From Heloderma charlesbogerti (taxonomy: Eukaryota; Chordata; Lepidosauria; Squamata; Helodermatidae): a stretch of 64,000 bases of DNA. Below the pieces are notes generated by a model. The model was not told the origin of the DNA and made no database searches. It saw only the letters and a program-made list of their open reading frames with translations. How positions within the stretch are numbered: position 1 is the first letter of the stretch; every line of letters begins with the position of its first letter. Shown here piece after piece: positions 17,190 to 64,000 of the stretch. The stretch covers positions 1 through 64,000 of the forward strand of contig JANEZZ010001896.1 in NCBI GenBank assembly GCA_026122225.1. Reading direction: 5' to 3'. The translations under genes and the position numbers were made by a program.

Positions 17190-20100
17190 GCTAGACAATT
17201 TATTTATTTATTTATTCATTTCATTTCTATACCGCCCAATAGCCGAAGCTCTCTGGGCGGTTCACAAAAACTAAAACCAAACAACACACAATAAAACAAT
17301 TTAAAATATATAGAACATTAAAACCACAATATAACAATACAACCACAATAAAACCTAGCAGCAGTACAGGAGTTTAAAATACAGATTTAAAACAGCAAAG
17401 ATAAAAATTTAGAAAGCTAAAATGCCTGGGAAAATAACAAGGTCTTCACCTGGCGCCGAAAGGAGTACAATGTAGGCGCCAGGCGAACCTCACTAGGGAG
17501 CTCATTCCAGAGCCGGGGTGCCACAACAGAAAAAGCCCTCCTCCTAGTAGCCACCCACCTCACTTCCTTTGGCAGGGGCTCACGGAGAAGGGCCACTGAT
17601 GATGATCTTAAGGTCCAGGCAGGCACATATGGGAGGAGGCGATCCTTCAAGTAACCTGGCCTCAAGCCGTTAAGGGCTTTGAATGTTAACACCAGCACTT
17701 TGAATCGGGCCCGGAAATGGACTGGCAGCCAGTGCAGCTGGAAAAGTACTGGCGTAATATGAGCTCGCAGGCCAGTCCCTGTTAACAATCTTGCTACCCT
17801 ATTTTGGACCAGCTGAAGTTTCCGGACCGTTTTCAAAGGCAGCCCCACATATAACGCATTGCAGTAATCCAGACGAGAAGTTATCAGAGCATGGATAACT
17901 GTAGCTAGGCTATCTCTGTCTAGATAAGGGCGTAGTTGGTATACCAGCCTAAGCTGATAAAAAGTGCTCCGTGCCACTGAGTTCACCTGTGCCTCAAGTG
18001 ACAGTTCTGGATCCAGGAGCACCCCCAAACTACGAACCTGATCCTTTAGGGGGAGTGCAACCCCCTCCAGAACAGGTTGAATATCACCTAGCCGGGCAGA
18101 CGAACCACCCACTAACAGTACCTCCGTCTTGTCTGGATTGAGTTTCAGTTTATTAGCCCTCATCCAGTCCATTACCGTGCCCAGGCACTGGTTCAGAACA
18201 GCCACTGCCTCACCTGGTTTTGATGAGAAAGAGAGGTAGAGCTGGGTGTCATCCACATATTGATGGCACCTCAGCCCACATCTCCGGATAACCTCCCCCA
18301 GCGGTTTCATGTAGATGTTAAACAGCATGGGGGATAAAATAGAGCCCTGTGGAACCCCATGGCACAATTGCCATGGCACAGAGCATTAATCCCCCAGCAC
18401 CACCTTCTGGAATCGGCCATCCAAGTAGGAGCGGAACCACTGTAGTGCAGTGCCTCCAACTCCCAACCCAGACAACCTATCCAGAAGGATACCATGGTCG
18501 ATGGTATCGAAAGCCGCTGAGAGGTCCAGGAGAATCAACAGGGTCGCACTCCCCCTGTCCCTCTCCCGGCAGAGGTCATCCCACAGGGCGACCAAGGCAG
18601 TTTCCGTTCCAAAACCAGGCCTGAAGCCCGATTGAAATGGATCTAGATAATCCGTTTCATTCAACAGTGCCTGGAGCTGTCCTACAACCACCTGCTCAAG
18701 CACCTTGCCCAGGAAGGGAATGTTGGCCACTGGCCTATAATTGTTAACATCCTCTGGGTCCAGGTTAGGCTTTTTCAGGAGTGGTCTAATTACTGCCTCT
18801 TTTAAAGCAGCAGGCACCACTCCCTCTCTCAAGGAGGAATTTACAACCTCCTGGACCCAGCTGGACAACCCCTCCTTGTTTGATTTAATAAGCCATGAAG
18901 GGCAAGGGTCAAGCACACAAGTGGTCAATCGGACTTGGCCAAGCACCTTGTCCGCATCCTCAGGCCTCAGTAACTGAAACTCATCCAATAAAACTGGACC
19001 AGACGGTGCTCTGAACACCTCTACCAATGGAACTGCATTAATGGTGGTGTCCAATTCATGACGAATCTGAGCGACTTTATCCTCAAAGTGCCGCGCAAAC
19101 TCATCACAGCGTGCTACCGAGGGTTCCACCGTCTCTCTCCCTGGCCCAGAATGTAACAGGCCGCGAACCACTCGGAAAAGCTCCGCCGGACGACATTGAG
19201 AAGATGCAATGCTGGTGGAAAAGAACTGCCTCTTTGCCACCCTCACCGCCACAGAGTAGGCTCGATAGTGGGCTCTTACCTGTGTTCGGTCAGACTCAGC
19301 ACAAGTTTTCCTCCACCTGCGTTCTAGCCGTCTCCCCTCTTGCTTCATTGCCCTCAGCTCAGGTGTATACCAAGGAGCTGGCCAGGCTCTGCTCAGAGGG
19401 AGAGGGCACTTGGGTGCGATCGTGTCAACCGCCCGAGTCATCTCTGCATTCCACAGAGCGACCTGGGCTTCGACAGGAGCACCAGCCATACGAGCAGGAA
19501 AATCCCCCAGAGCCCTCTGGAATCCATCGGAATCCATTAATCTCCAGGGGCGGACCATTTTAATAGGTCCCCCACCCTTGCAGAGGGGAAAGGCCGCCAG
19601 AAGTCTAAACCTCAGCAGGAAGTGATCTGACCATGACAAAGGGACAGATGTTAATTCCTCCACTTTCAGATCACCATCCTCCTGCCCAGTCGAGAAAACC
19701 AGATCAAGCGTGTGTCCTTTTATATGCGTTGGGCCGATGACATGTTGGGACAGCCCCATGGTTGTCATGGCGGCCATGAAGTCCTGAGCCGCCCCGGATA
19801 CAGCGGCCTCAGCATGGAAGTTGAGATCCCCCAGGACCATCATCCTGTGGGTCCTCAACACCAAGTCCGAGACCACCTCCGTCAGCTCAGGCAGGGAGTC
19901 CGATGGGCAGCGGGGTGGGCGGTACACCAACAGAATCCCTAATCTGTCCTGGGTACCCAACACAAGGTACAGACACTCAAGATCTGCACTCAAATGAGCA
20001 GGAAGCCTGGAGAGGGAGATTGAATTCCTATAGACCACGGCAACCCCCCCTCCCCGACCCTCAAGTCGGTGTTGGTGCTGCACCGAGTACCCAGGAGGGC

Positions 20101-20640
20101 ACAGCTGGAAGAGAGTGACCCCTCCCAGTTCCCCAACCCAGGTCTCAGTAATACATGCCAGGTCAGCCCCCTCATCCACAATCAAATCATGGATGAGGGA
20201 GGTCTTATTTTGGGCCGACCTGGCATTCAGCAGCAGCACCACCAGACCCGAGGGCAGACTGGTAAGGCTGCCAGGAACCATCAGGTTGGGGGAAGAACCA
20301 CAAGAGGGGACAGCTGTAAGGTGTCTAGCCCCTCTTCTCCTCAGCTGGCCTGTTAATCCCCCAACGCCATACCTCCCCCTGCCCATGACCATGGTTATGG
20401 TGGCACCTCCCCCACCCCCTGAGTTGCCCAATAGTCCTCCCAGGCACATATTAAAATATTAAGATATAAAATATACAACAGTTTAAAAGAACATAAAAAA
20501 GATAAAAGAGAACAGCAGCTAAGAAGGAGCAGATAGTCCACGTTTGCCCCTTCCCCTGGTCTTTAAAGCTGCTGCCCTCTGCTGCTGCTGCTGCTATTTG
20601 CTGCTGGTGTCTCTGGAGAGGCAGGTGGGTAGATCTTCAG
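17190..20640 (-). mobile_element. Nearly full-length L2-clade LINE
   Basis: Minus-strand element with a long EN-RT ORF (20449 to 17417) and a 3' end near 17190 carrying the hairpin GAACCGCCC…GGGCGGTATAG and an AAAT-type tail. A 5' non-coding segment with a GCT microsatellite (20581-20595) precedes the ORF; the exact 5' boundary is not clear. The element spans the edge of the mirrored region: positions from 18349 upward have a reverse-complement partner at 61.7-64.0 kb, while 17190-18348 has none only because the window ends. Confidence 0.85.
17417..20449 (-). pseudogene. L2 LINE endonuclease-reverse transcriptase, one in-frame stop
   Basis: About 1010 codons in a single frame, broken only by one TAA at 18386-18388. 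The N-terminal part holds an APE-type endonuclease: LLNARSAQNK, ACITETWV, GGGVAVVYRNS, MVLGDLNFHAE and the catalytic WSDHFLLRF. The reverse transcriptase follows with [50 protein letters not shown] and the active-site YVDDTQLY. The YMKPLGE…DDTQLY arrangement is typical of the L2 clade of the CR1 superfamily. The stop falls just upstream of the PQGS motif, so a product ending there would lack the RT active site. An apparent restart GTG at 18379 is only the next open stretch. Confidence 0.88.
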
Positions 20641-20653
20641 GTCCTACACGACT

Positions 20654-20693
20654 CCAAGTGCGACGCTAAGTGCGCACTTAGCGTCGCACTTGG
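20654..20693. repeat. 40-bp perfect palindrome
   Basis: CCAAGTGCGACGCTAAGTGC is followed immediately by its exact reverse complement, with no loop. It is CpG-rich and sits just upstream of the L2 5' region. The mirrored copy is at 61659-61698. Confidence 0.9.
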
Positions 20694-20699
20694 CGCGAC

Positions 20700-23559
20700 G
20701 CTGAGGCGCACGCCGAGGCAAGACAAGACTTTTTTGCCCATCTAGCTGGGGCATGTTGGGGGGGAGCAGGGAAGGAGGCTGGAAAGCCCTTGGGATCCCA
20801 GCCTCTCCAGTCCCCCCTTCCCACCCACCAACACAACTTGCTGATCTCGGAGGGGCAGGTGGCACAGTTCTTTCCTCACCGGCTGCAAGGGGGCAGAGGG
20901 TGAAGCACAAAGTCCTGGCTCCAAAGTCAGAGCACCGTCTCCAACCTCAGATCCCAGAATTTGAAGTATCCTGTGGCCCCCAGATGCTGTCTAAGGGCCA
21001 AAGGATTGCTCCCTTAGATATTCTTTTTTTGGCAGCCATTTCAGAGACCCCTCTTAATACATACCACAACAGACTTCCGCTGAGCGAACATCAGGGTACA
21101 AACATTTCCAAGAAACTGTCCCAAAATTGTAAGAAAAAAATCTATGTAGAAGTTATAAAATGTGGCAGGGGAGAAGAAGAAATACATTTTGCCCAATGAA
21201 ACAATGTAAATGTATACTCTGGGCTCATCAACAGCTTTGCTCAAATTTCCCCATAAAAAAAAAAAATTATTGTTCCTTCATATTTCAGGGTGTATAATAG
21301 TCAAAATGTCACATAAGAAACAAAATACCACATAAACATTATAAAAGCACTATGCATAAATAAATTCTTACACAAATGCAAGAACTAATTCATTACACCC
21401 CTTAAAGTAACAGTCAGCTGTATTCTCTACCTTAAAATAAAAGGTTTACTTACTTACATTTATGCAAGGTTATTTTACCCCCATAATGCTCTCAATACAG
21501 ACATGGAACAATATCCTTGAGACTATTCAGATACAAATGCAAAAAAATAACATCCCAACCTATCTGGTTTGCAAAATTCAAACTACAACATGAACTCCAA
21601 CCCTTCCACAGCAGTTTTACTTTGTAATTATATGGATCACATGCCCACAATAGGCTCCATTTTAACAGTTAAATCCACCTGATCATTTTCAACTCCAGTA
21701 AAATTTTAACAATCACGTAATTTGAGAATATTTTGATGGGGGGGCACTTTCCTGAGATATTTTCAAGACTTCACCTTGTTTTAAGAAGTACGCAATCCTG
21801 TTTTCCAGTCCAGCTATTAACATGACAGCAACCTTAGCATAAATTCCCACTTGTTAACCCTCCAGTGACATTGTTAGTCTTACAGAAAGTTACAGTGTTT
21901 AATTGTGTACACAATATAAAAGCAGGTGGACAACAGTCACTAAGGACATGGTTTATATTGGGCACCTTTTATACTAAAAAAAGTGAGATCAGATTGCAGC
22001 TGACTTTCTTTACATTTACAAATCAAGTGCCAAAAACATATTTTAAAAATTCTCAGCAAAAATTAGGAACAAGTCCAGGTCCTGTAATTGCTCCAGTTAT
22101 GGAATGATCTGCTCATTTACCACTGCTTTTAGGAGAGTGCTGAAAACTACTCTATACTACCAGGATTTTGGTAGCACTTGATTTTAGATACGTAGGTGTA
22201 CTTCAAATAGAGCTGAATTAGGGTTTCTTAGTATTAATGACTGTTTTTATAATCTTTCGTAATATCCAACTTTGCACGAGTGGACTTCCTCTAACAGCAA
22301 ATTACACAATCTTGATAATAATTCCTTGAAACTTTTCCTTTTTATAATCATTTCTTCAAAAGCAGTCAGATAAATCCTAAAAGAGCCATTTCTAATCCCA
22401 ATATATATGCAGTTTGTTATCTGCATTCACAGAAACCAAAGAAGTTTGTCTGGTTCATTCCTCTTTTTAAAGAATACCCCAGCTAATATATTGTTCCTAT
22501 TTTAACATGTCCCAATATCTTACAATCCCATATTTTACCCACAGAGATTCTACCATAGCTATCACGAAACTTCCATTGTAAATAAAATATTAGTAGGATT
22601 TGTTTCAAATGAGAAGCAGTATATAATATTGCCAATAAATAAATAATGTAGCTGGGTGTAATTTTTTTTCAAACTAGCCCATGCATGCATTACTGCCATA
22701 ATAACGGGGTTCTCATCATTCATTATCTTTTACTTTACTAAATCTTCTGCTTCAAATTAAATTGTAGATCATTTAGCAAACTCATACTTAAGATCTTTCC
22801 TGTTTATCTCCAGCTTCATTCTCACCTACTTCTTATTTACTATGTAAATTCTTCCAACACATAAGCCTCTCATTCCACGCTGCCAGCTCCTACTTGGCTA
22901 CCCCTTCTGACCTCACAATTAGTTGCTGAATATTGAAATGCAGATGCACAGAGGAAACTGTGATTTCAAAGGATTGTGGGTCATCAGCAGCACTTCAACA
23001 TGTGAGCCAAGTTTAAAAGGCACTTTAGGAAGATGATAAAAAAAAAAAATACCCAAAAGACAACTCTGCCAATTAACACCAGCATGAATAATGTGCACGC
23101 TAATATTGAAGTGAATTCCAAGATGTACAATTCTTTAATAACTCAATGAGGGAAAGTTCTAGCTGTAATGGAACTGAAATGACTGATCTTTTCCCTTCCT
23201 AATGCCTACACCCAGTCTTCTATGAAAACCACCATATTCACTGTTTCTCCTACATCTCAGACTTTTTAAATGTTACTACTTCATAGCATCCACTGCTTTT
23301 TCAAATTAGCCAAAGTCATTATACAGAAAGATTATATTCAGATACCACATCAGCAACTCAGGTAAGGTGGAGCCAACTAGTCAATATGGAGAAACTGACT
23401 AGAGTAGATAGGGTATTTCAGTGAGAAACAGATTATCAGCTTTACAAAAATCAGCCCAGAATAGCTTCATCAAATCAGGAGATAACGAACTCTTCAAAAA
23501 GAAAGAGAGAGAGAGAGAGAAAGCAGTTAGATTTTCAAAGGAAGCTTCAAAGAATTAAG
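20700..23559. other. C2orf76 intron sequence, no gene seen
   Basis: About 2.9 kb of mostly AT-rich sequence between the L2 and BovB elements, inside the intron between the second and third coding exons of C2orf76. Near 22590-22650 is a short LINE-like tail ending in AATAAATAAATAATG. A GA run lies at 23506-23521. I see no supported coding region; the ORF at 20753-21199 has no recognisable domain. Confidence 0.6.
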
Positions 23560-23571
23560 AACCCAAATTTT

Positions 23572-26500
23572 GTTGTTGTTCACTCGTTCAGTCGTGTCCG
23601 ACTCTTCGTGACCCCATGGACCATAGCACGCCAGGCCTTCCTGTCCACCGCTCTCTCCCGGAGTGTGCTCAAGTTCATATTCATTGCATCGGTGATGCTA
23701 TCTAGCCATCTCATCCCCTGCCGTCCCCTTCTCCTTTTGCCTTCAGTCTTTCCCAGCATCAGGGTCTTTTCCAGAGAGTTTTCTCTTCGCATTAGGTAGC
23801 CAAAATATTTCAGCTTCAGCTTCAGTATCTGTCCTTCCAATGAGCACTCAGGGTTGATTTCCTTTAGTATGGACTGATTTGACCTCCTTGCAGTCCAGGG
23901 GACTCGTAAGAGTCTTCTCCAGCACCATAGTTCAAAAGCATCAATTCTTCGGCGCTCAGCCTTCCTTATAGTCCAGCTCTCACAGCCATACGTTACTACT
24001 GGTAAAACCATAGCTTTGATTAGACGGACCTTTGTCGGCAAGGTGATGTCTCTGCTTCTTACTGTGCTGTCTAGGTTTGCCATAGCTTTCCTCCCAAGGA
24101 GCAAGCGTCTTTTAATTTCATGGCTACAGTCACCGTCTGCCGTGATCTTGGAGCCCAAGAAAGTAAAATCTGTCACTGCTTCCATTTCTTCCCCTTCTAT
24201 ATGCCAGGAAGTGATGGGGCCAGATGCCATGATCTTCGTTTTTTTAATGTTGCGTTTCAAACCAGCTTTTGCACTCTCCTCTTTCACCCTCAACAAGAGG
24301 CTCTTGAGATCCTCTTCGCTTTCTGCCATTAGGGTGGTATCGTCTGCATATCGGAGGTTGTTGATAATTCTCCCGGCAATCTTAATTCCGACCTCTGATT
24401 CATCCAACCTGGCATTTCTCATGATGTACTCTGCATATAAGTTAAATAAGCAGGGTGACAATATGCAGCCTTGTCGTACTCCTTTCCCAATTTTGAACCA
24501 CTGGGTTGTTCCATGTCTGGTTCTTACTGTTGCTTCTTGACCCTCGTACAGGTTTCTCAGGAGAGAACAGGTTTCTCAGGTAAGGTGGTCTGGTACTCCC
24601 ATCACTTTAAGAATTTGCCACAGTTTGTTGTGATCCACACAATCAAAGGCTTTGGCGTAGTCAATGAAGCAGAAATAGATTTTTTCTGGAATTCTCTTGC
24701 TTTCTCTATGATGCAGCGAATGTTGGCAATTTGATCTCTAGTTCCTCTGCCTCTTCAAAACCCAGCTGGCACTTCCGGTAGTTCTCAGTTTGCATACTGC
24801 TGAAGCCTAGCTTTTAGGATTTTGAGAATCACCTTGCTGGCATGTGAAATAAGCGCAATTGTGCGGTAGTTTGAACACTCTTTGGCGTTGCCCTTCTTTG
24901 GAATTGGAATGTAAACTGACCTTTTCCAGTCTTGCGGCCATTGTTGAGTGTTCCAAATTTGGTGGCATATTGAATGCAGCACTTTAACAGCATCATCTTT
25001 TAGGATTGTAAATAGCTCAGCTGGAATACTGTCATCTCCACTAGCTTTGTTGTTACTAATGCTTCCTAAGGCCCACTTGACTTCACTTTCTAGGATGTCC
25101 GGCTCAAGTTCAGTGACCGCACTATCATGGCTATCAGGGACATTCAGATCTTTCCTGTATAGTTCTTCTGTGTATTCTTGCCACCTCTTCTTAATCTCAT
25201 CTGCTTCTGTTAGGTCCCTGCCTTCTTTGTCCTTTATCATGCCCATCTTTGCACAAAACGTTCCCTTGAGATGTCCAATTTTCTTGAAGAGATCTCTAGT
25301 CTTTCCCATTCTGTTGTTTTCCTCGATTTCTTTGCATTGTTCATTTAAGAAGGCCTTCTTGTCTCTCCTTGCTATTCTCTGGAACTCTGCATTCAGTTGG
25401 ATGTATCTTCCCCTTTCTCCCTTGCTTTTCGCTTCCCTTCTTTCCTCAGCTACTTGTAAAGCCTCATCAGACAGCCACTTGGCTTTCTTGCATTTCTTTT
25501 TCTTTGGGATGGATTGAGTTGCTGCCTCCTAAACAATGTTACGGACCTCCGTCCATAGTTCCTCAGGCACTCTGTCTATCAGGTCTAATCCCTGAAATCT
25601 ATTCCTCACCTCCACTGTGTATTCATCAGGGATATGATTTAGGTCATACCTGAATGGTTTAGTGGTTTTCCCTACGTTCTTCAATTTAAGCCAAAATTTT
25701 GCAACAAGAAGCTCATGATCTGAGCCACAGTCAGCTCCAGGTCTTGTTTTGACTGACTGTATAGAGCTTCTCCATCTTTAGCTGCAAAGGACATAATCAA
25801 TCTGATTTCGATATTGACCATCTGGTGATGTCCATGTGTAGAGTCGTCTCTTGTGCTGTTGAAAAAGAGTGTTTGCTATGATCAGCGTGTTCTCTTGGCA
25901 AAACTCTATTAGCTTTTGTCCTGCTTCATTTTGTACACCAAGGCCATGCCTGCCTGTTATCCCAGTGATTTCTTGACTTCCTACTTTAGCATTCCAATCC
26001 CCTATGATGAAGAGGACATCTTTTTTTGGTGTTAGTTCTAGAAGGTGTTGTAGGTCTTCATAGAACCAATCAACCTCAGCTTCTTTGGCATCAGTGGTTG
26101 GGGCATAGACTTGAATTACTGTGATGTTGAATGGTTTGCCTTGGATTTGTACTGAGATCATTCTATCATTTTTAAGATTGTACCCCAGAACTGCTTTTCC
26201 CACCCTTTTGTTGACTATGAGTGCTACTCCATTTCTTCTAAGGGATTCTTGCCCACAATAGTAGATATGATGGTCACCTGAATTAAATTTGCCCATGCCT
26301 GTCCATTTTAGTTCACTGATTCCCAAGATGTCGATGTTCAATCTTGCCATCTCATGTTTGACCACCTCCAACTTACCTTGATTCATTGATCTGACATTCC
26401 AGGTTCCTAAACAATATTGTTCTTTACAGCATCGGACTTTCTTTTCACCACCAGACACATCCACAGCTGAGTGTCCTTTCGGCTTTGGCCCAGCCGCTTC

Positions 26501-26799
26501 ACTCTTTCTGGCGCTACTTGGAAATACCCTCTGCTCTTCCCCAGTAGTATATTGGACACCTTCTGACCTGAGGGGCTCATCTTCCGGTGTCATCTCTTTT
26601 AGCCTTGTGTTACGTTCCATGGGGTTTTCTTGGCAAGAATACTGGAGTGGGTTGCCATTTCCTTCTCCAGAGGACCACATTTTGTCAGAACTCTCTGCCA
26701 TGACCTGTCCGTCTTGGGTGGCCCTGCACAGCATAGCTTATGGCTTCACTGAGTTACACAAGCTCCTTCGCCACAACAAGGCAGTGATCCATGAAGGGG
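23572..26799 (-). mobile_element. Full-length BovB (RTE) LINE with 12-bp TSD
   Basis: A 3.23-kb minus-strand insertion bounded by the exact duplication AACCCAAATTTT (23560-23571 and 26800-26811). Its 3' end reads GAGTCGGACACGACTGAACG and a (CAA)n tail, the classic BovB terminus. Domains in order are an APE endonuclease (LGTWNVRSMNQGKLEVVK, ISELKWTG, IGDWNAKVGS) and a reverse transcriptase (PIPKKGNAKECSNYRTIALI, LRYADDTTLMAESEE), then a C-terminal segment with WCWRRLLRVPW and a VTKSRTRL end. BovB is known for horizontal transfer between squamates, ruminants and other lineages. The length matches the usual full-length element of about 3.2 kb. Confidence 0.95.
23580..26734 (-). pseudogene. BovB ORF2 (endonuclease-RT), disrupted
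   Basis: Three open stretches cover most of the protein: 26734-25778 (endonuclease), 25309-24785 (start of RT) and 24461-23580 (RT active site to C-terminus). They are separated by nonsense changes, for example a stop right after IDYVLCS near 25778 and another after LQQYAN near 24785, and by frameshifts. Near 24545-24585 a short duplicated segment (two copies of CAGGTTTCTCAGG) disturbs the frame where BovB normally reads DHLTCLLRNLY. The right-arm copy has one T fewer in the second copy. The element is not expected to be autonomous. Confidence 0.9.
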
Positions 26800-27611
26800 A
26801 ACCCAAATTTTACTGGTCCTCAAAATGAGAGAAACTGAACTCCCTTTTAAAATTTAGGCTTGATTCTATTTTGTAATAAGAATACTCTTGACACTTACAA
26901 CCCCCACAATTCCTGCTATACTTTTCAGTGTCTCCTACTGCTAGCTTTCATTGACCCATAGCATGGGTTGCCAGATACAGATCCCAAGAGAGCTCTTATG
27001 TATTTAAAAGTTACATACAAGGGAATGCTTCACCAGGTATGGGCTTTTCCCATCATCATACTGCACTGATCAGTTAAGATTTTTTTTAGGATGGGGAGGG
27101 GGCACTCCATTTTCCAACTAGAGGCCTGGGGAAGCCAGAAGTGTATTTTGCCACATGAACTGGCCTCCTTAGAAATGACTAAGGCTGCATCCCAAAGTTG
27201 CTGCCATCGATCAGTAAGGGCTTCCAAGCTATGGAGCGCATGTACTCAGACTGAAATGAGGCATTACATACAAAAGTAAAAGGTAACATGAAACAGTAGG
27301 CTCATAAAACCTGACAAGTTTTTTCCCCCTATTACCAAAAGTACAGGTAAAGATTTTACCATAACTTAATTAAAATTTGGTAGGCACAGATAAAATTGCT
27401 CTGAGGGCCATATCCACTCTACTGGCCACAATTTGATCCCCCCTAAGTTCAGACCCTGATAGTGCAATCCTAAGCATGCTCATTTTGGGGTTCAATGAGT
27501 TCCCCAGCCTTCAGAATAGAATAAATAAAACTCAGCCACACTCTCTACAAAACAAAGCTTTAGCACTGTGCAGATCATCCAGACCAACATCCTGTTTCTA
27601 GTTGTTCCACA

Positions 27612-27682
27612 ACGCAATCCTATGCACGTTTACTCAGAAGTTCAATAGGGCTTACTCCCAGGTAAGTGTGCATAGGATTACA
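27612..27682. repeat. Palindromic MITE-like repeat (AATCCTAT ends)
   Basis: Starts GCAATCCTATGCACGTTTAC and ends GTAAGTGTGCATAGGATTAC, an inverted pair around a core with CAATAGGGCTTACTCC. It is one of the cleanest copies of the family listed at 249-337. Mirror copy: 54671-54741. Confidence 0.6.
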
Positions 27683-28130
27683 GCTGTAGCCGACCGAGAA
27701 AGGAGGTGGGATACTTTCTGGCCTTTACGCATCATGCTCAACAACTCCAGAAAAAAGTCACAAGATATCCAAATGTATCCAACTCTGTAGCCATTATTGT
27801 TGTTACAACAACTCTTCTATAATTTCACACCATTACTAGTTAGAAACCTTCCCCAGACTGATACAACTCCTCAGGGTAGGAACTTTCCTTCCTGCCCCAT
27901 GCTAACCTGTAAAACACCATGTATGTTGACAGCACTTATATAAAACAAGTATTTCTAGTCAATTTCTAGCTACTCTCTTGACAAGTTCACACATCGCACT
28001 AAGCCACCCTGAGAATAAACCATGGTGGGTGGGCAGCTTGTCCGTTACTCCCAATGGATGATTGCCCACTCAGTGGCTTACCATGATTTGTTAATCATGG
28101 ATTTGTTAATCAGTGATTTGTTAATCACTG

Positions 28131-28157
28131 CAGTCCTGCAGTGTGCAGGACTGCAAA
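28131..28157. repeat. Short stem-loop
   Basis: TGCAGTCCTGCA, the spacer GTG, and TGCAGGACTGCA form a 12-bp perfect stem with a 3-base loop. It follows three spaced copies of a GATTTGTTAATCA-type motif (28085-28130). It is probably part of a degraded palindromic repeat. Mirror copy: 54196-54222. Confidence 0.6.
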
Positions 28158-28239
28158 ACTGCATGTCCACTATTTAGCCCAGTATAGCCATATCCCCCTC
28201 TTTGTCAATGTCCATGTCAACTTCATCCTCCACTTCCCA

Positions 28240-28312
28240 AGCGGAACTCCCCACCCCCCACCACCCCTCCTGCATCAGCTCCCACCCCCCACCACTCCTC
28301 CTGCATTATCTC
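28240..28312. repeat. Two-copy C-rich direct repeat
   Basis: Two adjacent copies of a unit of about 33 bases built on CCCACCCCCCACCAC followed by TCCTGCAT. No coding function is evident. Mirror copy: 54041-54113. Confidence 0.6.
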
Positions 28313-28502
28313 ACAATTCTGTGAGCCCTTATGAACGTGGTAATTAGCGTTCACATTTTTTCTTTTCAGGGTCTTGCACAAGTCCGCTATTCAGCCAAGC
28401 ATACCAATATTCCCCTCTTGTCAACATCCTTGTCAATTTCATCCTTCACTTCAGGGCTTCCCTTGCTAGCGATTTTTTTTTTTTTAAGGCTGCTTCATGT
28501 TC

Positions 28503-28851
28503 TTGTTGTTGTTCAGTCATTAAGTCGTGTCCGACTCTTCGCGACACCATGGACCATAGCACGCCAGGCCTTCCTGTCCACCGCTCTCTCCCAGAGTGTG
28601 CTCAAGTTCATATTAATTGCATCAGGGATGCTATCTAGCCATCTCATCCTCTGCCACCCCTTCTCCTTTTGCCTTCAATCTTTCCCAGCATCACGGCCTT
28701 CTCCAGGGAGTTTTCTCTTCGCATTAGGTGGCCAAAATATTTGAGCTTAAGCTTCAGTATCTGTCTTTCCAATGAGCGGTCAGGGTTGATTTCCTTTAGG
28801 ATTGACTGATATGACCTCCTTGCAGTCCAGGGGACTCGTAAGAGTTTTCTC
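28503..28851 (-). mobile_element. 5'-truncated BovB fragment
   Basis: About 350 bases of BovB 3' sequence: the reverse complement of AGTCGGACACGACTTAATGA and the segment encoding LLRVPWTARRSYQSILKEIN. It is clearly homologous to 23572-23925 but diverged from it, so it is an independent older insertion. The right boundary is where similarity stops in TTTTCTCC. Mirror copy: 53502-53850. Confidence 0.9.
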
Positions 28852-29006
28852 CCTCCTCTAAAGTTCCTTCTCTCCTGCAGCCGCCAGCCATTTCTGGCTC
28901 CCCCTCCCCCTTCATGCTTGTCATTGCTCTGTAACCCATATGTGTATCTGACAGCTAGCAATGAAGGCCAGTGGAAGGATCACTAAACATACGCAAATTT
29001 TGAGGC

Positions 29007-29170
29007 AGACACATAAGGCAGATTGCTAAAAATATGAAAATTTGAAGGCAGAGCAGTAAAACTGAGGTGGAAATTGTGCAAATTTCATGACAGAACAGTA
29101 AAATGGAGGGGAGATTGCACAAATTTCATGGCAGAGCAGTAAAACCAAGGGAAGTATTACACAAAATTCC
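29007..29170. repeat. Tandem repeat, period about 41-42 bp
   Basis: Successive copies of CAGA(G/A)CAGTAAAA start at 29049, 29091 and 29132, each linked by a segment like AATTTCATG(A/G)CAG. About three good copies plus a degraded leading one. No coding role is seen. Mirror copy: 53183-53346. Confidence 0.75.
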
Positions 29171-29817
29171 TAGCAACCGATATTCACTCCTGCACAAAAA
29201 AATTAAAATTCTCAATGGAAGGTGCCAAGAAGGGAGAGGGAAGAATGGCAGCAGCATTAGCAAGATTGCGAGGAGAAGCAGAGTTTTTCACTGCTCTCGC
29301 CAGGCAGATCTCTAGCCATTCCCAACAACCCACAATAAAATCATCCTGCCAGGTTCGGGTGTCACAACAAGCCACCCTAAGAACAAGACACCCTAAACAA
29401 TGCTACTCTAAGCCATGGGTTTTCAGGGTGGTTTGTTTGTGAAAAACCACCCACAATGGAAAAACCATTCCAGATTCAGAAATCGTGCTAAGCCACCTTG
29501 CAACCACCCACAATAACAACCACCATGGTTTAGCATGATATCGGAACCAGGTCACTAAAATGATACAAGCTTAAACAAATCTCTCCTTGTACTGTACATC
29601 CTCATGATATATTTCCATCATAAACTGCGTTTTTTTCCTCAGTCTCTTCCCCCACTCCTATCAAAGCTGAACAGGACAAGCTCTTTTAAGATCCACTCAT
29701 GACATAATTTCTCCATTTCTATAATCACTTTAGTTCCTTATTTTATATTTACTCAAAGCAGATTAAATCTCAACATATAGGTAATTTGATTTAACTGAAG
29801 AGTAAAAAAAGACATAC

Positions 29818-31685: not shown

Positions 31686-32270
<585 letters not shown>

Positions 32271-50082: not shown

Positions 50083-50667
<585 letters not shown>

Positions 50668-52258: not shown

Positions 52259-52484
52259 TATGTCTTATCCTTGTTTACTTGGGAGTAAGTTCTATTTGCA
52301 TGACTTGGTCTACAAGCCTATGTATGTTCATTTGGGAGTAAACTCCATTTGACTTCGTGGAAATTACTTCTGACTAAACATACATAGGATTGTGCTGTTA
52401 GTCCTAAGAAAAGGTAGGCATGTGTATCCATCCTGTTAAATATAGGTGAAAACTGATAGTGTTTCTTTTCAACTTTTTTTCTAG

Positions 52485-52535
52485 ATGTGGCATTAAGGAC
52501 AGGGCTTCCACCTCCTTTTAAAAAATATAGATACG
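52485..52535 (+). CDS. C2orf76: C2orf76 homologue, second coding exon (right copy)
   Basis: Exact mirror of 29818-29868, with a TTTTTTTCTAG acceptor and a GTATGT donor, encoding DVALRTGLPPPFKKYRY. It is the last C2orf76 exon visible on this arm. Confidence 0.9.
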
Positions 52536-53182
52536 GTATGTCTTTTTTTACTCTTCAGTTAAATCAAATTACCTATATGTTGAGATTTAATCTGCTTTGA
52601 GTAAATATAAAATAAGGAACTAAAGTGATTATAGAAATGGAGAAATTATGTCATGAGTGGATCTTAAAAGAGCTTGTCCTGTTCAGCTTTGATAGGAGTG
52701 GGGGAAGAGACTGAGGAAAAAAACGCAGTTTATGATGGAAATATATCATGAGGATGTACAGTACAAGGAGAGATTTGTTTAAGCTTGTATCATTTTAGTG
52801 ACCTGGTTCCGATATCATGCTAAACCATGGTGGTTGTTATTGTGGGTGGTTGCAAGGTGGCTTAGCACGATTTCTGAATCTGGAATGGTTTTTCCATTGT
52901 GGGTGGTTTTTCACAAACAAACCACCCTGAAAACCCATGGCTTAGAGTAGCATTGTTTAGGGTGTCTTGTTCTTAGGGTGGCTTGTTGTGACACCCGAAC
53001 CTGGCAGGATGATTTTATTGTGGGTTGTTGGGAATGGCTAGAGATCTGCCTGGCGAGAGCAGTGAAAAACTCTGCTTCTCCTCGCAATCTTGCTAATGCT
53101 GCTGCCATTCTTCCCTCTCCCTTCTTGGCACCTTCCATTGAGAATTTTAATTTTTTTGTGCAGGAGTGAATATCGGTTGCTA

Positions 53183-53346
53183 GGAATTTTGTGTAATACT
53201 TCCCTTGGTTTTACTGCTCTGCCATGAAATTTGTGCAATCTCCCCTCCATTTTACTGTTCTGTCATGAAATTTGCACAATTTCCACCTCAGTTTTACTGC
53301 TCTGCCTTCAAATTTTCATATTTTTAGCAATCTGCCTTATGTGTCT
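53183..53346. repeat. 41-42 bp tandem repeat, right arm
   Basis: Mirror of 29007-29170 with the same units. Confidence 0.75.
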
Positions 53347-53501
53347 GCCTCAAAATTTGCGTATGTTTAGTGATCCTTCCACTGGCCTTCATTGCTAGCT
53401 GTCAGATACACATATGGGTTACAGAGCAATGACAAGCATGAAGGGGGAGGGGGAGCCAGAAATGGCTGGCGGCTGCAGGAGAGAAGGAACTTTAGAGGAG
53501 G

Positions 53502-53850
53502 GAGAAAACTCTTACGAGTCCCCTGGACTGCAAGGAGGTCATATCAGTCAATCCTAAAGGAAATCAACCCTGACCGCTCATTGGAAAGACAGATACTGAA
53601 GCTTAAGCTCAAATATTTTGGCCACCTAATGCGAAGAGAAAACTCCCTGGAGAAGGCCGTGATGCTGGGAAAGATTGAAGGCAAAAGGAGAAGGGGTGGC
53701 AGAGGATGAGATGGCTAGATAGCATCCCTGATGCAATTAATATGAACTTGAGCACACTCTGGGAGAGAGCGGTGGACAGGAAGGCCTGGCGTGCTATGGT
53801 CCATGGTGTCGCGAAGAGTCGGACACGACTTAATGACTGAACAACAACAA
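53502..53850 (+). mobile_element. 5'-truncated BovB fragment, right arm
   Basis: Mirror of 28503-28851, ending in AGTCGGACACGACTTAATGA and a (CAA)n tail. Confidence 0.9.
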
Positions 53851-55553
53851 GAACATGAAGCAGCCTTAAAAAAAAAAAAATCGCTAGCAAGGGAAGCCCT
53901 GAAGTGAAGGATGAAATTGACAAGGATGTTGACAAGAGGGGAATATTGGTATGCTTGGCTGAATAGCGGACTTGTGCAAGACCCTGAAAAGAAAAAATGT
54001 GAACGCTAATTACCACGTTCATAAGGGCTCACAGAATTGTGAGATAATGCAGGAGGAGTGGTGGGGGGTGGGAGCTGATGCAGGAGGGGTGGTGGGGGGT
54101 GGGGAGTTCCGCTTGGGAAGTGGAGGATGAAGTTGACATGGACATTGACAAAGAGGGGGATATGGCTATACTGGGCTAAATAGTGGACATGCAGTTTTGC
54201 AGTCCTGCACACTGCAGGACTGCAGTGATTAACAAATCACTGATTAACAAATCCATGATTAACAAATCATGGTAAGCCACTGAGTGGGCAATCATCCATT
54301 GGGAGTAACGGACAAGCTGCCCACCCACCATGGTTTATTCTCAGGGTGGCTTAGTGCGATGTGTGAACTTGTCAAGAGAGTAGCTAGAAATTGACTAGAA
54401 ATACTTGTTTTATATAAGTGCTGTCAACATACATGGTGTTTTACAGGTTAGCATGGGGCAGGAAGGAAAGTTCCTACCCTGAGGAGTTGTATCAGTCTGG
54501 GGAAGGTTTCTAACTAGTAATGGTGTGAAATTATAGAAGAGTTGTTGTAACAACAATAATGGCTACAGAGTTGGATACATTTGGATATCTTGTGACTTTT
54601 TTCTGGAGTTGTTGAGCATGATGCGTAAAGGCCAGAAAGTATCCCACCTCCTTTCTCGGTCGGCTACAGCTGTAATCCTATGCACACTTACCTGGGAGTA
54701 AGCCCTATTGAACTTCTGAGTAAACGTGCATAGGATTGCGTTGTGGAACAACTAGAAACAGGATGTTGGTCTGGATGATCTGCACAGTGCTAAAGCTTTG
54801 TTTTGTAGAGAGTGTGGCTGAGTTTTATTTATTCTATTCTGAAGGCTGGGGAACTCATTGAACCCCAAAATGAGCATGCTTAGGATTGCACTATCAGGGT
54901 CTGAACTTAGGGGGGATCAAATTGTGGCCAGTAGAGTGGATATGGCCCTCAGAGCAATTTTATCTGTGCCTACCAAATTTTAATTAAGTTATGGTAAAAT
55001 CTTTACCTGTACTTTTGGTAATAGGGGGAAAAAACTTGTCAGGTTTTATGAGCCTACTGTTTCATGTTACCTTTTACTTTTGTATGTAATGCCTCATTTC
55101 AGTCTGAGTACATGCGCTCCATAGCTTGGAAGCCCTTACTGATCGATGGCAGCAACTTTGGGATGCAGCCTTAGTCATTTCTAAGGAGGCCAGTTCATGT
55201 GGCAAAATACACTTCTGGCTTCCCCAGGCCTCTAGTTGGAAAATGGAGTGCCCCCTCCCCATCCTAAAAAAAATCTTAACTGATCAGTGCAGTATGATGA
55301 TGGGAAAAGCCCATACCTGGTGAAGCATTCCCTTGTATGTAACTTTTAAATACATAAGAGCTCTCTTGGGATCTGTATCTGGCAACCCATGCTATGGGTC
55401 AATGAAAGCTAGCAGTAGGAGACACTGAAAAGTATAGCAGGAATTGTGGGGGTTGTAAGTGTCAAGAGTATTCTTATTACAAAATAGAATCAAGCCTAAA
55501 TTTTAAAAGGGAGTTCAGTTTCTCTCATTTTGAGGACCAGTAAAATTTGGGTT

Positions 55554-58500
55554 CCCCTTCATGGATCACTGCCTTGTTGTGGCGAAGGAGCTTGTGTAAC
55601 TCAGTGAAGCCATAAGCTATGCTGTGCAGGGCCACCCAAGACGGACAGGTCATGGCAGAGAGTTCTGACAAAATGTGGTCCTCTGGAGAAGGAAATGGCA
55701 ACCCACTCCAGTATTCTTGCCAAGAAAACCCCATGGAACGTAACACAAGGCTAAAAGAGATGACACCGGAAGATGAGCCCCTCAGGTCAGAAGGTGTCCA
55801 ATATACTACTGGGGAAGAGCAGAGGGTATTTCCAAGTAGCGCCAGAAAGAGTGAAGCGGCTGGGCCAAAGCCGAAAGGACACTCAGCTGTGGATGTGTCT
55901 GGTGGTGAAAAGAAAGTCCGATGCTGTAAAGAACAATATTGTTTAGGAACCTGGAATGTCAGATCAATGAATCAAGGTAAGTTGGAGGTGGTCAAACATG
56001 AGATGGCAAGATTGAACATCGACATCTTGGGAATCAGTGAACTAAAATGGACAGGCATGGGCAAATTTAATTCAGGTGACCATCATATCTACTATTGTGG
56101 GCAAGAATCCCTTAGAAGAAATGGAGTAGCACTCATAGTCAACAAAAGGGTGGGAAAAGCAGTTCTGGGGTACAATCTTAAAAATGATAGAATGATCTCA
56201 GTACAAATCCAAGGCAAACCATTCAACATCACAGTAATTCAAGTCTATGCCCCAACCACTGATGCCAAAGAAGCTGAGGTTGATTGGTTCTATGAAGACC
56301 TACAACACCTTCTAGAACTAACACCAAAAAAAGATGTCCTCTTCATCATAGGGGATTGGAATGCTAAAGTAGGAAGTCAAGAAATCACTGGGATAACAGG
56401 CAGGCATGGCCTTGGTGTACAAAATGAAGCAGGACAAAAGCTAATAGAGTTTTGCCAAGAGAACACGCTGATCATAGCAAACACTCTTTTTCAACAGCAC
56501 AAGAGACGACTCTACACATGGACATCACCAGATGGTCAATATCGAAATCAGATTGATTATGTCCTTTGCAGCTAAAGATGGAGAAGCTCTATACAGTCAG
56601 TCAAAACAAGACCTGGAGCTGACTGTGGCTCAGATCATGAGCTTCTTGTTGCAAAATTTTGGCTTAAATTGAAGAACGTAGGGAAAACCACTAAACCATT
56701 CAGGTATGACCTAAATCATATCCCTGATGAATACACAGTGGAGGTGAGGAATAGATTTCAGGGATTAGACCTGATAGACAGAGTGCCTGAGGAACTATGG
56801 ACGGAGGTCCGTAACATTGTTTAGGAGGCAGCAACTCAATCCATCCCAAAGAAAAAGAAATGCAAGAAAGCCAAGTGGCTGTCTGATGAGGCTTTACAAG
56901 TAGCTGAGGAAAGAAGGGAAGCGAAAAGCAAGGGAGAAAGGGGAAGATACATCCAACTGAATGCAGAGTTCCAGAGAATAGCAAGGAGAGACAAGAAGGC
57001 CTTCTTAAATGAACAATGCAAAGAAATCGAGGAAAACAACAGAATGGGAAAGACTAGAGATCTCTTCAAGAAAATTGGACATCTCAAGGGAACGTTTTGT
57101 GCAAAGATGGGCATGATAAAGGACAAAGAAGGCAGGGACCTAACAGAAGCAGATGAGATTAAGAAGAGGTGGCAAGAATACACAGAAGAACTATACAGGA
57201 AAGATCTGAATGTCCCTGATAGCCATGATAGTGCGGTCACTGAACTTGAGCCGGACATCCTAGAAAGTGAAGTCAAGTGGGCCTTAGGAAGCATTAGTAA
57301 CAACAAAGCTAGTGGAGATGACAGTATTCCAGCTGAGCTATTTACAATCCTAAAAGATGATGCTGTTAAAGTGCTGCATTCAATATGCCACCAAATTTGG
57401 AACACTCAACAATGGCCGCAAGACTGGAAAAGGTCAGTTTACATTCCAATTCCAAAGAAGGGCAACGCCAAAGAGTGTTCAAACTACCGCACAATTGCGC
57501 TTATTTCACATGCCAGCAAGGTGATTCTCAAAATCCTAAAAGCTAGGCTTCAGCAGTATGCAAACTGAGAACTACCGGAAGTGCCAGCTGGGTTTTGAAG
57601 AGGCAGAGGAACTAGAGATCAAATTGCCAACATTCGCTGCATCATAGAGAAAGCAAGAGAATTCCAGAAAAAATCTATTTCTGCTTCATTGACTACGCCA
57701 AAGCCTTTGATTGTGTGGATCACAACAAACTGTGGCAAATTCTTAAAGTGATGGGAGTACCAGACCACCTTACCTGAGAACCTGTTCTCTCCTGAGAAAC
57801 CTGTACGAGGGTCAAGAAGCAACAGTAAGAACCAGACATGGAACAACCCAGTGGTTCAAAATTGGGAAAGGAGTACGACAAGGCTGCATATTGTCACCCT
57901 GCTTATTTAACTTATATGCAGAGTACATCATGAGAAATGCCAGGTTGGATGAATCAGAGGTCGGAATTAAGATTGCCGGGAGAATTATCAACAACCTCCG
58001 ATATGCAGACGATACCACCCTAATGGCAGAAAGCGAAGAGGATCTCAAGAGCCTCTTGTTGAGGGTGAAAGAGGAGAGTGCAAAAGCTGGTTTGAAACGC
58101 AACATTAAAAAAACGAAGATCATGGCATCTGGCCCCATCACTTCCTGGCATATAGAAGGGGAAGAAATGGAAGCAGTGACAGATTTTACTTTCTTGGGCT
58201 CCAAGATCACGGCAGACGGTGACTGTAGCCATGAAATTAAAAGACGCTTGCTCCTTGGGAGGAAAGCTATGGCAAACCTAGACAGCACAGTAAGAAGCAG
58301 AGACATCACCTTGCCGACAAAGGTCCGTCTAATCAAAGCTATGGTTTTACCAGTAGTAACGTATGGCTGTGAGAGCTGGACTATAAGGAAGGCTGAGCGC
58401 CGAAGAATTGATGCTTTTGAACTATGGTGCTGGAGAAGACTCTTACGAGTCCCCTGGACTGCAAGGAGGTCAAATCAGTCCATACTAAAGGAAATCAACC

Positions 58501-58780
58501 CTGAGTGCTCATTGGAAGGACAGATACTGAAGCTGAAGCTGAAATATTTTGGCTACCTAATGCGAAGAGAAAACTCTCTGGAAAAGACCCTGATGCTGGG
58601 AAAGACTGAAGGCAAAAGGAGAAGGGGACGGCAGGGGATGAGATGGCTAGATAGCATCACCGATGCAATGAATATGAACTTGAGCACACTCCGGGAGAGA
58701 GCGGTGGACAGGAAGGCCTGGCGTGCTATGGTCCATGGGGTCACGAAGAGTCGGACACGACTGAACGAGTGAACAACAAC
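55554..58780 (+). mobile_element. Full-length BovB LINE, right arm
   Basis: Mirror of 23572-26799 with the same 12-base duplication (AAAATTTGGGTT at 55542-55553 and 58781-58792). It is one base shorter because a TTT in the left copy (24572-24574) is TT here (near 57780). ORF pieces at 55619-56575, 57044-57568 and 57891-58772 carry the same stops as the left copy. Confidence 0.95.
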
Positions 58781-61658
58781 AAAATTTGGGTTCTTAATTC
58801 TTTGAAGCTTCCTTTGAAAATCTAACTGCTTTCTCTCTCTCTCTCTCTTTCTTTTTGAAGAGTTCGTTATCTCCTGATTTGATGAAGCTATTCTGGGCTG
58901 ATTTTTGTAAAGCTGATAATCTGTTTCTCACTGAAATACCCTATCTACTCTAGTCAGTTTCTCCATATTGACTAGTTGGCTCCACCTTACCTGAGTTGCT
59001 GATGTGGTATCTGAATATAATCTTTCTGTATAATGACTTTGGCTAATTTGAAAAAGCAGTGGATGCTATGAAGTAGTAACATTTAAAAAGTCTGAGATGT
59101 AGGAGAAACAGTGAATATGGTGGTTTTCATAGAAGACTGGGTGTAGGCATTAGGAAGGGAAAAGATCAGTCATTTCAGTTCCATTACAGCTAGAACTTTC
59201 CCTCATTGAGTTATTAAAGAATTGTACATCTTGGAATTCACTTCAATATTAGCGTGCACATTATTCATGCTGGTGTTAATTGGCAGAGTTGTCTTTTGGG
59301 TATTTTTTTTTTTTATCATCTTCCTAAAGTGCCTTTTAAACTTGGCTCACATGTTGAAGTGCTGCTGATGACCCACAATCCTTTGAAATCACAGTTTCCT
59401 CTGTGCATCTGCATTTCAATATTCAGCAACTAATTGTGAGGTCAGAAGGGGTAGCCAAGTAGGAGCTGGCAGCGTGGAATGAGAGGCTTATGTGTTGGAA
59501 GAATTTACATAGTAAATAAGAAGTAGGTGAGAATGAAGCTGGAGATAAACAGGAAAGATCTTAAGTATGAGTTTGCTAAATGATCTACAATTTAATTTGA
59601 AGCAGAAGATTTAGTAAAGTAAAAGATAATGAATGATGAGAACCCCGTTATTATGGCAGTAATGCATGCATGGGCTAGTTTGAAAAAAAATTACACCCAG
59701 CTACATTATTTATTTATTGGCAATATTATATACTGCTTCTCATTTGAAACAAATCCTACTAATATTTTATTTACAATGGAAGTTTCGTGATAGCTATGGT
59801 AGAATCTCTGTGGGTAAAATATGGGATTGTAAGATATTGGGACATGTTAAAATAGGAACAATATATTAGCTGGGGTATTCTTTAAAAAGAGGAATGAACC
59901 AGACAAACTTCTTTGGTTTCTGTGAATGCAGATAACAAACTGCATATATATTGGGATTAGAAATGGCTCTTTTAGGATTTATCTGACTGCTTTTGAAGAA
60001 ATGATTATAAAAAGGAAAAGTTTCAAGGAATTATTATCAAGATTGTGTAATTTGCTGTTAGAGGAAGTCCACTCGTGCAAAGTTGGATATTACGAAAGAT
60101 TATAAAAACAGTCATTAATACTAAGAAACCCTAATTCAGCTCTATTTGAAGTACACCTACGTATCTAAAATCAAGTGCTACCAAAATCCTGGTAGTATAG
60201 AGTAGTTTTCAGCACTCTCCTAAAAGCAGTGGTAAATGAGCAGATCATTCCATAACTGGAGCAATTACAGGACCTGGACTTGTTCCTAATTTTTGCTGAG
60301 AATTTTTAAAATATGTTTTTGGCACTTGATTTGTAAATGTAAAGAAAGTCAGCTGCAATCTGATCTCACTTTTTTTAGTATAAAAGGTGCCCAATATAAA
60401 CCATGTCCTTAGTGACTGTTGTCCACCTGCTTTTATATTGTGTACACAATTAAACACTGTAACTTTCTGTAAGACTAACAATGTCACTGGAGGGTTAACA
60501 AGTGGGAATTTATGCTAAGGTTGCTGTCATGTTAATAGCTGGACTGGAAAACAGGATTGCGTACTTCTTAAAACAAGGTGAAGTCTTGAAAATATCTCAG
60601 GAAAGTGCCCCCCCATCAAAATATTCTCAAATTACGTGATTGTTAAAATTTTACTGGAGTTGAAAATGATCAGGTGGATTTAACTGTTAAAATGGAGCCT
60701 ATTGTGGGCATGTGATCCATATAATTACAAAGTAAAACTGCTGTGGAAGGGTTGGAGTTCATGTTGTAGTTTGAATTTTGCAAACCAGATAGGTTGGGAT
60801 GTTATTTTTTTGCATTTGTATCTGAATAGTCTCAAGGATATTGTTCCATGTCTGTATTGAGAGCATTATGGGGGTAAAATAACCTTGCATAAATGTAAGT
60901 AAGTAAACCTTTTATTTTAAGGTAGAGAATACAGCTGACTGTTACTTTAAGGGGTGTAATGAATTAGTTCTTGCATTTGTGTAAGAATTTATTTATGCAT
61001 AGTGCTTTTATAATGTTTATGTGGTATTTTGTTTCTTATGTGACATTTTGACTATTATACACCCTGAAATATGAAGGAACAATAATTTTTTTTTTTTATG
61101 GGGAAATTTGAGCAAAGCTGTTGATGAGCCCAGAGTATACATTTACATTGTTTCATTGGGCAAAATGTATTTCTTCTTCTCCCCTGCCACATTTTATAAC
61201 TTCTACATAGATTTTTTTCTTACAATTTTGGGACAGTTTCTTGGAAATGTTTGTACCCTGATGTTCGCTCAGCGGAAGTCTGTTGTGGTATGTATTAAGA
61301 GGGGTCTCTGAAATGGCTGCCAAAAAAAGAATATCTAAGGGAGCAATCCTTTGGCCCTTAGACAGCATCTGGGGGCCACAGGATACTTCAAATTCTGGGA
61401 TCTGAGGTTGGAGACGGTGCTCTGACTTTGGAGCCAGGACTTTGTGCTTCACCCTCTGCCCCCTTGCAGCCGGTGAGGAAAGAACTGTGCCACCTGCCCC
61501 TCCGAGATCAGCAAGTTGTGTTGGTGGGTGGGAAGGGGGGACTGGAGAGGCTGGGATCCCAAGGGCTTTCCAGCCTCCTTCCCTGCTCCCCCCCAACATG
61601 CCCCAGCTAGATGGGCAAAAAAGTCTTGTCTTGCCTCGGCGTGCGCCTCAGCGTCGCG

Positions 61659-61698
61659 CCAAGTGCGACGCTAAGTGCGCACTTAGCGTCGCACTTGG
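61659..61698. repeat. 40-bp perfect palindrome, right arm
   Basis: Mirror of 20654-20693; identical, as any perfect palindrome would be. Confidence 0.9.
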
Positions 61699-61709
61699 AG
61701 TCGTGTAGG

Positions 61710-64000
61710 ACCTGAAGATCTACCCACCTGCCTCTCCAGAGACACCAGCAGCAAATAGCAGCAGCAGCAGAGGGCAGCAGCTTTAAAGACCAGGGGAAGG
61801 GGCAAACGTGGACTATCTGCTCCTTCTTAGCTGCTGTTCTCTTTTATCTTTTTTATGTTCTTTTAAACTGTTGTATATTTTATATCTTAATATTTTAATA
61901 TGTGCCTGGGAGGACTATTGGGCAACTCAGGGGGTGGGGGAGGTGCCACCATAACCATGGTCATGGGCAGGGGGAGGTATGGCGTTGGGGGATTAACAGG
62001 CCAGCTGAGGAGAAGAGGGGCTAGACACCTTACAGCTGTCCCCTCTTGTGGTTCTTCCCCCAACCTGATGGTTCCTGGCAGCCTTACCAGTCTGCCCTCG
62101 GGTCTGGTGGTGCTGCTGCTGAATGCCAGGTCGGCCCAAAATAAGACCTCCCTCATCCATGATTTGATTGTGGATGAGGGGGCTGACCTGGCATGTATTA
62201 CTGAGACCTGGGTTGGGGAACTGGGAGGGGTCACTCTCTTCCAGCTGTGCCCTCCTGGGTACTCGGTGCAGCACCAACACCGACTTGAGGGTCGGGGAGG
62301 GGGGGTTGCCGTGGTCTATAGGAATTCAATCTCCCTCTCCAGGCTTCCTGCTCATTTGAGTGCAGATCTTGAGTGTCTGTACCTTGTGTTGGGTACCCAG
62401 GACAGATTAGGGATTCTGTTGGTGTACCGCCCACCCCGCTGCCCATCGGACTCCCTGCCTGAGCTGACGGAGGTGGTCTCGGACTTGGTGTTGAGGACCC
62501 ACAGGATGATGGTCCTGGGGGATCTCAACTTCCATGCTGAGGCCGCTGTATCCGGGGCGGCTCAGGACTTCATGGCCGCCATGACAACCATGGGGCTGTC
62601 CCAACATGTCATCGGCCCAACGCATATAAAAGGACACACGCTTGATCTGGTTTTCTCGACTGGGCAGGAGGATGGTGATCTGAAAGTGGAGGAATTAACA
62701 TCTGTCCCTTTGTCATGGTCAGATCACTTCCTGCTGAGGTTTAGACTTCTGGCGGCCTTTCCCCTCTGCAAGGGTGGGGGACCTATTAAAATGGTCCGCC
62801 CCTGGAGATTAATGGATTCCGATGGATTCCAGAGGGCTCTGGGGGATTTTCCTGCTCGTATGGCTGGTGCTCCTGTCGAAGCCCAGGTCGCTCTGTGGAA
62901 TGCAGAGATGACTCGGGCGGTTGACACGATCGCACCCAAGTGCCCTCTCCCTCTGAGCAGAGCCTGGCCAGCTCCTTGGTATACACCTGAGCTGAGGGCA
63001 ATGAAGCAAGAGGGGAGACGGCTAGAACGCAGGTGGAGGAAAACTTGTGCTGAGTCTGACCGAACACAGGTAAGAGCCCACTATCGAGCCTACTCTGTGG
63101 CGGTGAGGGTGGCAAAGAGGCAGTTCTTTTCCACCAGCATTGCATCTTCTCAATGTCGTCCGGCGGAGCTTTTCCGAGTGGTTCGCGGCCTGTTACATTC
63201 TGGGCCAGGGAGAGAGACGGTGGAACCCTCGGTAGCACGCTGTGATGAGTTTGCGCGGCACTTTGAGGATAAAGTCGCTCAGATTCGTCATGAATTGGAC
63301 ACCACCATTAATGCAGTTCCATTGGTAGAGGTGTTCAGAGCACCGTCTGGTCCAGTTTTATTGGATGAGTTTCAGTTACTGAGGCCTGAGGATGCGGACA
63401 AGGTGCTTGGCCAAGTCCGATTGACCACTTGTGTGCTTGACCCTTGCCCTTCATGGCTTATTAAATCAAACAAGGAGGGGTTGTCCAGCTGGGTCCAGGA
63501 GGTTGTAAATTCCTCCTTGAGAGAGGGAGTGGTGCCTGCTGCTTTAAAAGAGGCAGTAATTAGACCACTCCTGAAAAAGCCTAACCTGGACCCAGAGGAT
63601 GTTAACAATTATAGGCCAGTGGCCAACATTCCCTTCCTGGGCAAGGTGCTTGAGCAGGTGGTTGTAGGACAGCTCCAGGCACTGTTGAATGAAACGGATT
63701 ATCTAGATCCATTTCAATCGGGCTTCAGGCCTGGTTTTGGAACGGAAACTGCCTTGGTCGCCCTGTGGGATGACCTCTGCCGGGAGAGGGACAGGGGGAG
63801 TGCGACCCTGTTGATTCTCCTGGACCTCTCAGCGGCTTTCGATACCATCGACCATGGTATCCTTCTGGATAGGTTGTCTGGGTTGGGAGTTGGAGGCACT
63901 GCACTACAGTGGTTCCGCTCCTACTTGGATGGCCGATTCCAGAAGGTGGTGCTGGGGGATTAATGCTCTGTGCCATGGCAATTGTGCCATGGGGTTCCAC
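61710..64000 (+). mobile_element. L2 LINE, right arm, cut by window end
   Basis: Mirror of the 5' and central parts of the element at 17190-20640. The EN-RT frame starts at 61900 and reads 687 codons to the same TAA (61961+2000, at 63961-63963) that interrupts the left copy. The GCT run has four units here and five on the left. The RT active site and 3' end lie beyond the window. Confidence 0.9.

Follow-up and report, generated by a model that had tools for sequence, protein, structure and literature searches.

The window analysed here, a 64,000-nucleotide stretch of Heloderma charlesbogerti DNA comprising bases 1-64000 of contig C1672 (669,950 bp; JANEZZ010001896.1), is dominated by a giant palindrome that we attribute, with a probability of about 0.95, to a fold-back misassembly at the contig end. 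Palindromic long reads are probably behind the fold-back. The palindrome is almost certainly not a real feature and carries no biological novelty.

Self-alignment of the window returns one inverted match, in which positions 18349-64000 pair with themselves at 99.97% identity. A first-pass annotation, made from the letters alone, had described a spacerless palindrome with a fold at about 41177 and arms of at least 22.8 kb. The reported start at 18349 arises because the right window edge falls at 64000, and thus these limits reflect the window edge only. With 60 kb more of the contig included, the palindrome extends over C1672:1-82,349 (99.98% identity by self-alignment), and the earlier lower bound grows to arms of about 41.17 kb. 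Inverted near-identity over 41 kb excludes chance. The left arm stops exactly at base 1 of the contig, whereas the right arm continues into unpaired sequence. Because arm 1 ends at contig base 1, it is taken as the false arm, and arm 2 is taken to be in the true orientation. The axis is base 41177, as had been proposed: positions 41176 and 41178 form a pair, and pairing is perfect over the innermost 48 bases of both arms. The description as spacerless therefore holds to within one base, a single central T.

The two arms differ at very few positions. One substitution (41124/41229) and an adjoining 1-base indel (41128/41226) lie within about 52 bases of the axis. Further out, the arms differ by a CTG unit at 20579-20581/61771, by one T at 24572/57781 and by one G within a run of that base at 5352/76997. 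The self-alignment of C1672 lists three mismatches and eight gap openings because each difference is counted twice and the centre base is added. Among these listed differences, run-length indels form the majority, in agreement with the first-pass annotation. The features of the locus are collected in Table 1.

Table 1. Features of the palindrome and the embedded locus, in window coordinates unless a contig is named
Feature	Position	Strand	Basis and remarks
Arm 1	1..41176	-	Inverted copy of C1672:41178-82349; self-alignment and listed differences
Axis, single central base	41177..41177		Printed sequence compared with C2460
Arm 2, in-window part	41178..64000	+	Continues to C1672:82349, then unpaired sequence; self-alignment
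Segment B in arm 1	32014..41176	-	Overlap with C2460
Segment B in arm 2	41178..50339	+	Overlap with C2460; first 52 bases beside the axis differ by small insertions
Point matching the C2460 axis	50339..50340		Native CCTAAC/ATTAG here, CCTAAC/GTTAGG in C2460
C2orf76 coding-exon matches, arm 1	31797-31931, 29819-29869, ~16706-16744, 16477-16560, 10877-10951	-	tblastn
C2orf76, first two coding-exon matches, arm 2	50422-50556, 52484-52534	+	tblastn; remaining exons at C1672:65605-71472, outside the window
67-bp minisatellite, 6.8 copies	34069-34524 and 47829-48284 (arm 2)		Tandem Repeats Finder; in segment B, between C2orf76 and DBI

When the genome was searched with the axis region, a single further contig was reported, C2460 (1,322,092 bp), where the region occurs in both orientations. 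This contig is also folded from its first base (1-149,802, with the axis between 74902 and 74903), and its arms differ only by a 2-base change in a TG repeat over the 65 kb per arm that were compared (140,001-149,599 being left out). Beyond the 60 bp at the axis, the 106.2 kb of arm compared in the two contigs together is free of substitutions. C1672 and C2460 have a stretch of 9.16 kb in common, here called segment B, and their axes lie 9.16 kb apart in an interlocking arrangement: positions 41185-50339 of C1672 equal 65751-74902 of C2460 and, inverted, 74903-84054. Segment B is identical between the contigs save for small insertions within 52 bases of the C1672 axis. These insertions are nearly symmetric on the two arms, and we read them as poorly supported sequence at the turn.

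Each contig holds the native sequence across the axis of the other. Where C1672 reads CCCCAT, T, ATGGGG at its axis, the native sequence in C2460 is GATATGGGGCGG, and where CCTAAC turns into GTTAGG at the C2460 axis, the native continuation in C1672 is CCTAACATTAG. The two contigs are overlapping neighbours, each of which turns back inside the overlap. At their other ends, both contigs have a match for the final kilobase elsewhere in the assembly, at C1455:231934-232033 (inverted) for C1672 and at C1777:693-795 for C2460, and in both cases the match is probably to an overlapping neighbour contig that was left unjoined.

The genes on either side of segment B agree with this arrangement. Beyond the position of the C1672 axis, C2460 continues into DBI (coding matches at 86515-95795), the gene named in the first-pass annotation as expected there, and then into TMEM37 (112859-113416). 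Beyond the C2460 axis, C1672 continues into the coding exons of C2orf76 (50422-71472). When the two contigs are unfolded, the order is thus C2orf76-DBI-TMEM37, which we take to be the gene order on human chromosome 2. The exons and the minisatellite had been said to recur in reverse complement, the latter with unchanged copy number; tblastn indeed places C2orf76 coding-exon matches in both arms, and Tandem Repeats Finder counts the same number of minisatellite copies in each. The joined C2orf76 product matches Pfam DUF2340 across the whole profile, and among the matches listed (120 of 512) the protein is closest to that of Elgaria multicarinata webbii, at 91%, which makes an anguimorph lizard the probable source.

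LINE sequences also lie in the window and further along C1672. On the minus strand at 17417-20458, a LINE-type element has two frames in register, separated by one stop: the first, of 690 codons, encodes endonuclease and reverse transcriptase domains, and the second, behind the stop, has 322 codons. Other LINE pieces with reverse transcriptase and endonuclease domains, presumably BovB-like, lie at 23570-26800 and at C1672:99764-106408. Related copies at 93-95% are found further along C1672 and in C2460. No tRNA genes were found in the window and no Rfam families in bases 1-41400.

Other contig ends in the same assembly (2.302 Gb in 3,246 contigs) also fold back on themselves. We took the starts of 19 contigs, evenly spaced by contig number, and probed nine of them, ten having been dropped before the count as repetitive by eye (C1, C514, C1198, C1711, C1882, C2224, C2395, C2566, C2737 and C3079). 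Ten far ends of the same contigs, restricted to contigs shorter than 765 kb, were fetched and all were probed, as were the far ends of C1672 and C2460. The resulting 19 probed ends (nine starts and ten far ends) derive from 13 contigs. Fold-back within the same contig was found at 3 of these 19 ends (95% interval 3-40%), namely the start of C685 (1-99,124), the start of C1540 (1-77,572) and the end of C2737 (~353,094-424,324), and start probing recovered the positive control C2460. Among the candidates scored, the other 16 ends gave no fold-back within their own contig; in two of the probe searches 40 candidates were scored, out of 402 and 92 respectively, and misses are possible. The starts of C856, C1369, C2908, C2053 and C172 had no second near-identical copy in the probe search of the genome, and eight of the ten far-end probes were without fold-back, one of which (C1198) is a repeat.

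Two further palindromes came to light through C343, whose start matches palindromic C342 and whose end matches palindromic C2421; neither is counted in the 3 of 19. C342 is a palindrome over nearly the whole contig, with its axis near 11,855 of 23,377 bases and with noisier arms that are 97.6% alike over 1 kb around the axis. The axis of C2421 lies near 35,446. No whole-contig palindrome was present among ten contigs for which start and end were compared (C2395 was read whole). The five axes that were read have central spacers of 1 base (C1672), 0 (C2460), 0 (C685), 1 (C1540) and 4 (C342), and small errors occur near the axis in C1672 and C685. Because fold-backs occur at unrelated contig ends, they are a property of the assembly and not of the C2orf76 locus. 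Together with the native continuation in C2460, they support the preference for a fold-back artefact already expressed in the first-pass annotation.

In a separate observation from this survey, C1027 (64,284 bp) matches C1026 with both of its probes, the start at C1026:349981-350081 and the end at 413368-413467, order and spacing being unchanged. From this sequence match, C1027 appears to duplicate part of C1026.

Several lines of evidence thus converge on misassembly. The inverted copy begins at base 1 in both C1672 and C2460, the two axes interlock with each contig native across the axis of the other, and the same structure recurs in C685, C1540 and C2737, alongside the palindromes in C342 and C2421. 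The spacers of 0-4 bases at five axes and the 106.2 kb of arm free of substitutions outside the axis region point in the same direction, as does the documentation of palindromic reads that lack a spacer (PMC12870357) and of palindromic reads in an unamplified PacBio control (PMC6218980). Other observations count against it. Arms of 41 and 75 kb exceed a typical read, and a walk along the reverse strand must therefore be assumed. The near-symmetric errors at the C1672 axis are unlike single-read errors, 16 of the 19 probed ends show no fold-back within their contig, and the arms of C342 are only 97.6% alike around its axis.

We infer the type of read and the assembler step from these structures. 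Long reads in which one strand is directly followed by its complement would enter the assembly at weakly joined places, where a palindromic read could serve as a bridge. The assembler would then follow the other strand back to the end of the path, and the arms would become alike when the same reads were used for polishing. Of the artefact routes listed in the first-pass annotation, an unremoved hairpin read fits best; an amplification chimera may be another route, and nothing was seen that points to it. No remnant of the SMRTbell adaptor was recognised at the five axes, the best ungapped match to the adaptor sequence being 20-23 of 45 bases. The adaptor may have been missing from the read altogether.

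The paper on the H. charlesbogerti draft (PMC9713440) describes an assembly of 2.308 Gb with an N50 of 1.36 Mb in 3,551 contigs, a count that differs from the 3,246 contigs here. According to the same text, the draft was built from PacBio reads of a >30-kb library and a HiFi library using Flye 2.8.1 with a 10-kb minimum overlap, and was polished three times. Segment B, at 9.16 kb, falls just below this minimum overlap, which would help to explain why C1672 and C2460 were left unjoined. Foldbacks are reported for about 0.55-0.6% of reads in nanopore genomic data, as palindromic reads, and for 0.03% of Iso-Seq reads, whereas PacBio HiFi and Mas-Seq data are virtually without them (PMC12870357). 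A HiFi source is therefore disfavoured, and the raw reads of the >30-kb library are likelier. In an unamplified PacBio control, about 0.5% of reads were palindromic, a figure that combines false positives with missed or missing adaptors (PMC6218980).

The structure at the C2orf76 locus resembles previously described artefacts in some respects and departs from them in others. Like the long-read foldbacks of Heinz, Meyerson and Li (2026, PMC12870357), which often have no spacer, it consists of a strand followed directly by its complement, with the turn at one and the same place. However, the foldbacks in that report are single reads, whereas here the palindrome forms a polished contig end with 41-kb arms. 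It is also similar to the palindromes treated by Pacasus (PMC6218980) in being a false inverted duplication within an assembly, and in that case palindromic reads were the cause; artificial palindromes derived from amplification left inverted duplications in the gorilla Y assembly. Whole-genome amplification was the main cause there, but the accessible part of the H. charlesbogerti paper gives no sign of it for this draft. A literature search combining lizard genome assembly, nanopore and foldback found no paper.

Two genuine structures at this locus were weighed against misassembly. In the first, three 9.16-kb copies of segment B, the middle one inverted (B, inverted B, B), would really lie between C2orf76 and DBI, both axes being genuine and almost perfectly blunt, with only the outer arms false because the assembler left each axis wrongly. 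A triplication of this kind would be rare: a spacerless palindrome that formed recently between two conserved genes. It predicts exactly the interlocking axes of C1672 and C2460 and accommodates the nearly symmetric changes beside the C1672 axis. However, the whole repeat of about 27 kb would be within reach of the >30-kb library (PMC9713440), and fold-backs at unrelated contig ends would go unexplained. Its spacers of 0-1 base are also unlike those of sequenced human inverted duplications (PMC3907307), and we consider a triplication highly improbable. Even more improbable, in our estimation, are real giant palindromes of an amplicon, sex-chromosome or fold-back duplication type, whose arms would owe their likeness to recent origin or gene conversion. 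Their arms would be near-identical, as observed, and the zero substitutions in 106.2 kb would imply either active conversion or, at an assumed rate of 1e-9 per site per year, an age of less than about 14,000 years. Constitutional inverted duplications in humans do produce large inverted copies of adjacent sequence, but 21 of 21 sequenced junctions contained 766-70,466 bp of single-copy sequence as a spacer (Hermetz et al. 2014, PMC3907307). A duplication of that kind should therefore carry a single-copy spacer of hundreds of bases or more, whereas here the spacers measure 0-1 base and there is no outer flank. No unique outer flank precedes the left arm, which ends at base 1 in both contigs, and two different palindromes would be needed over one single-copy locus. 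The other folded contig ends would again be left without explanation.

A third reading, also raised in the first-pass annotation as an artefact route, holds that each arm comes from a different parental haplotype and that the assembler joined the two head to head. The run-length indels that make up most of the differences between arms would suit such a join, and C1027, which resembles a second copy of part of C1026, occurs in the same assembly. However, even at the low heterozygosity of 1.454e-4 given in PMC9713440, 15.4 substitutions would be expected in 106.2 kb and none was seen outside 60 bp at the axis (P ~2e-7), an argument that is weaker under a run of homozygosity. A fold-back step would still be needed, and the other folded contig ends would not be accounted for, which leaves a haplotype join with only the slimmest chance of being correct.

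The importance of the fold-back misassembly is for quality control rather than biology. Should the rate of 3 in 19 be representative, many contig ends of this assembly would carry false inverted duplications tens of kilobases long. False fold-backs inflate gene counts, introduce spurious palindromes into inverted-repeat surveys and keep neighbouring contigs apart; such ends can be recognised by aligning every contig end to its own reverse complement. C2orf76, DBI and TMEM37 are each present twice in the assembly; the animal itself most likely has a single, unfolded copy of the locus, with the genes running C2orf76-DBI-TMEM37.
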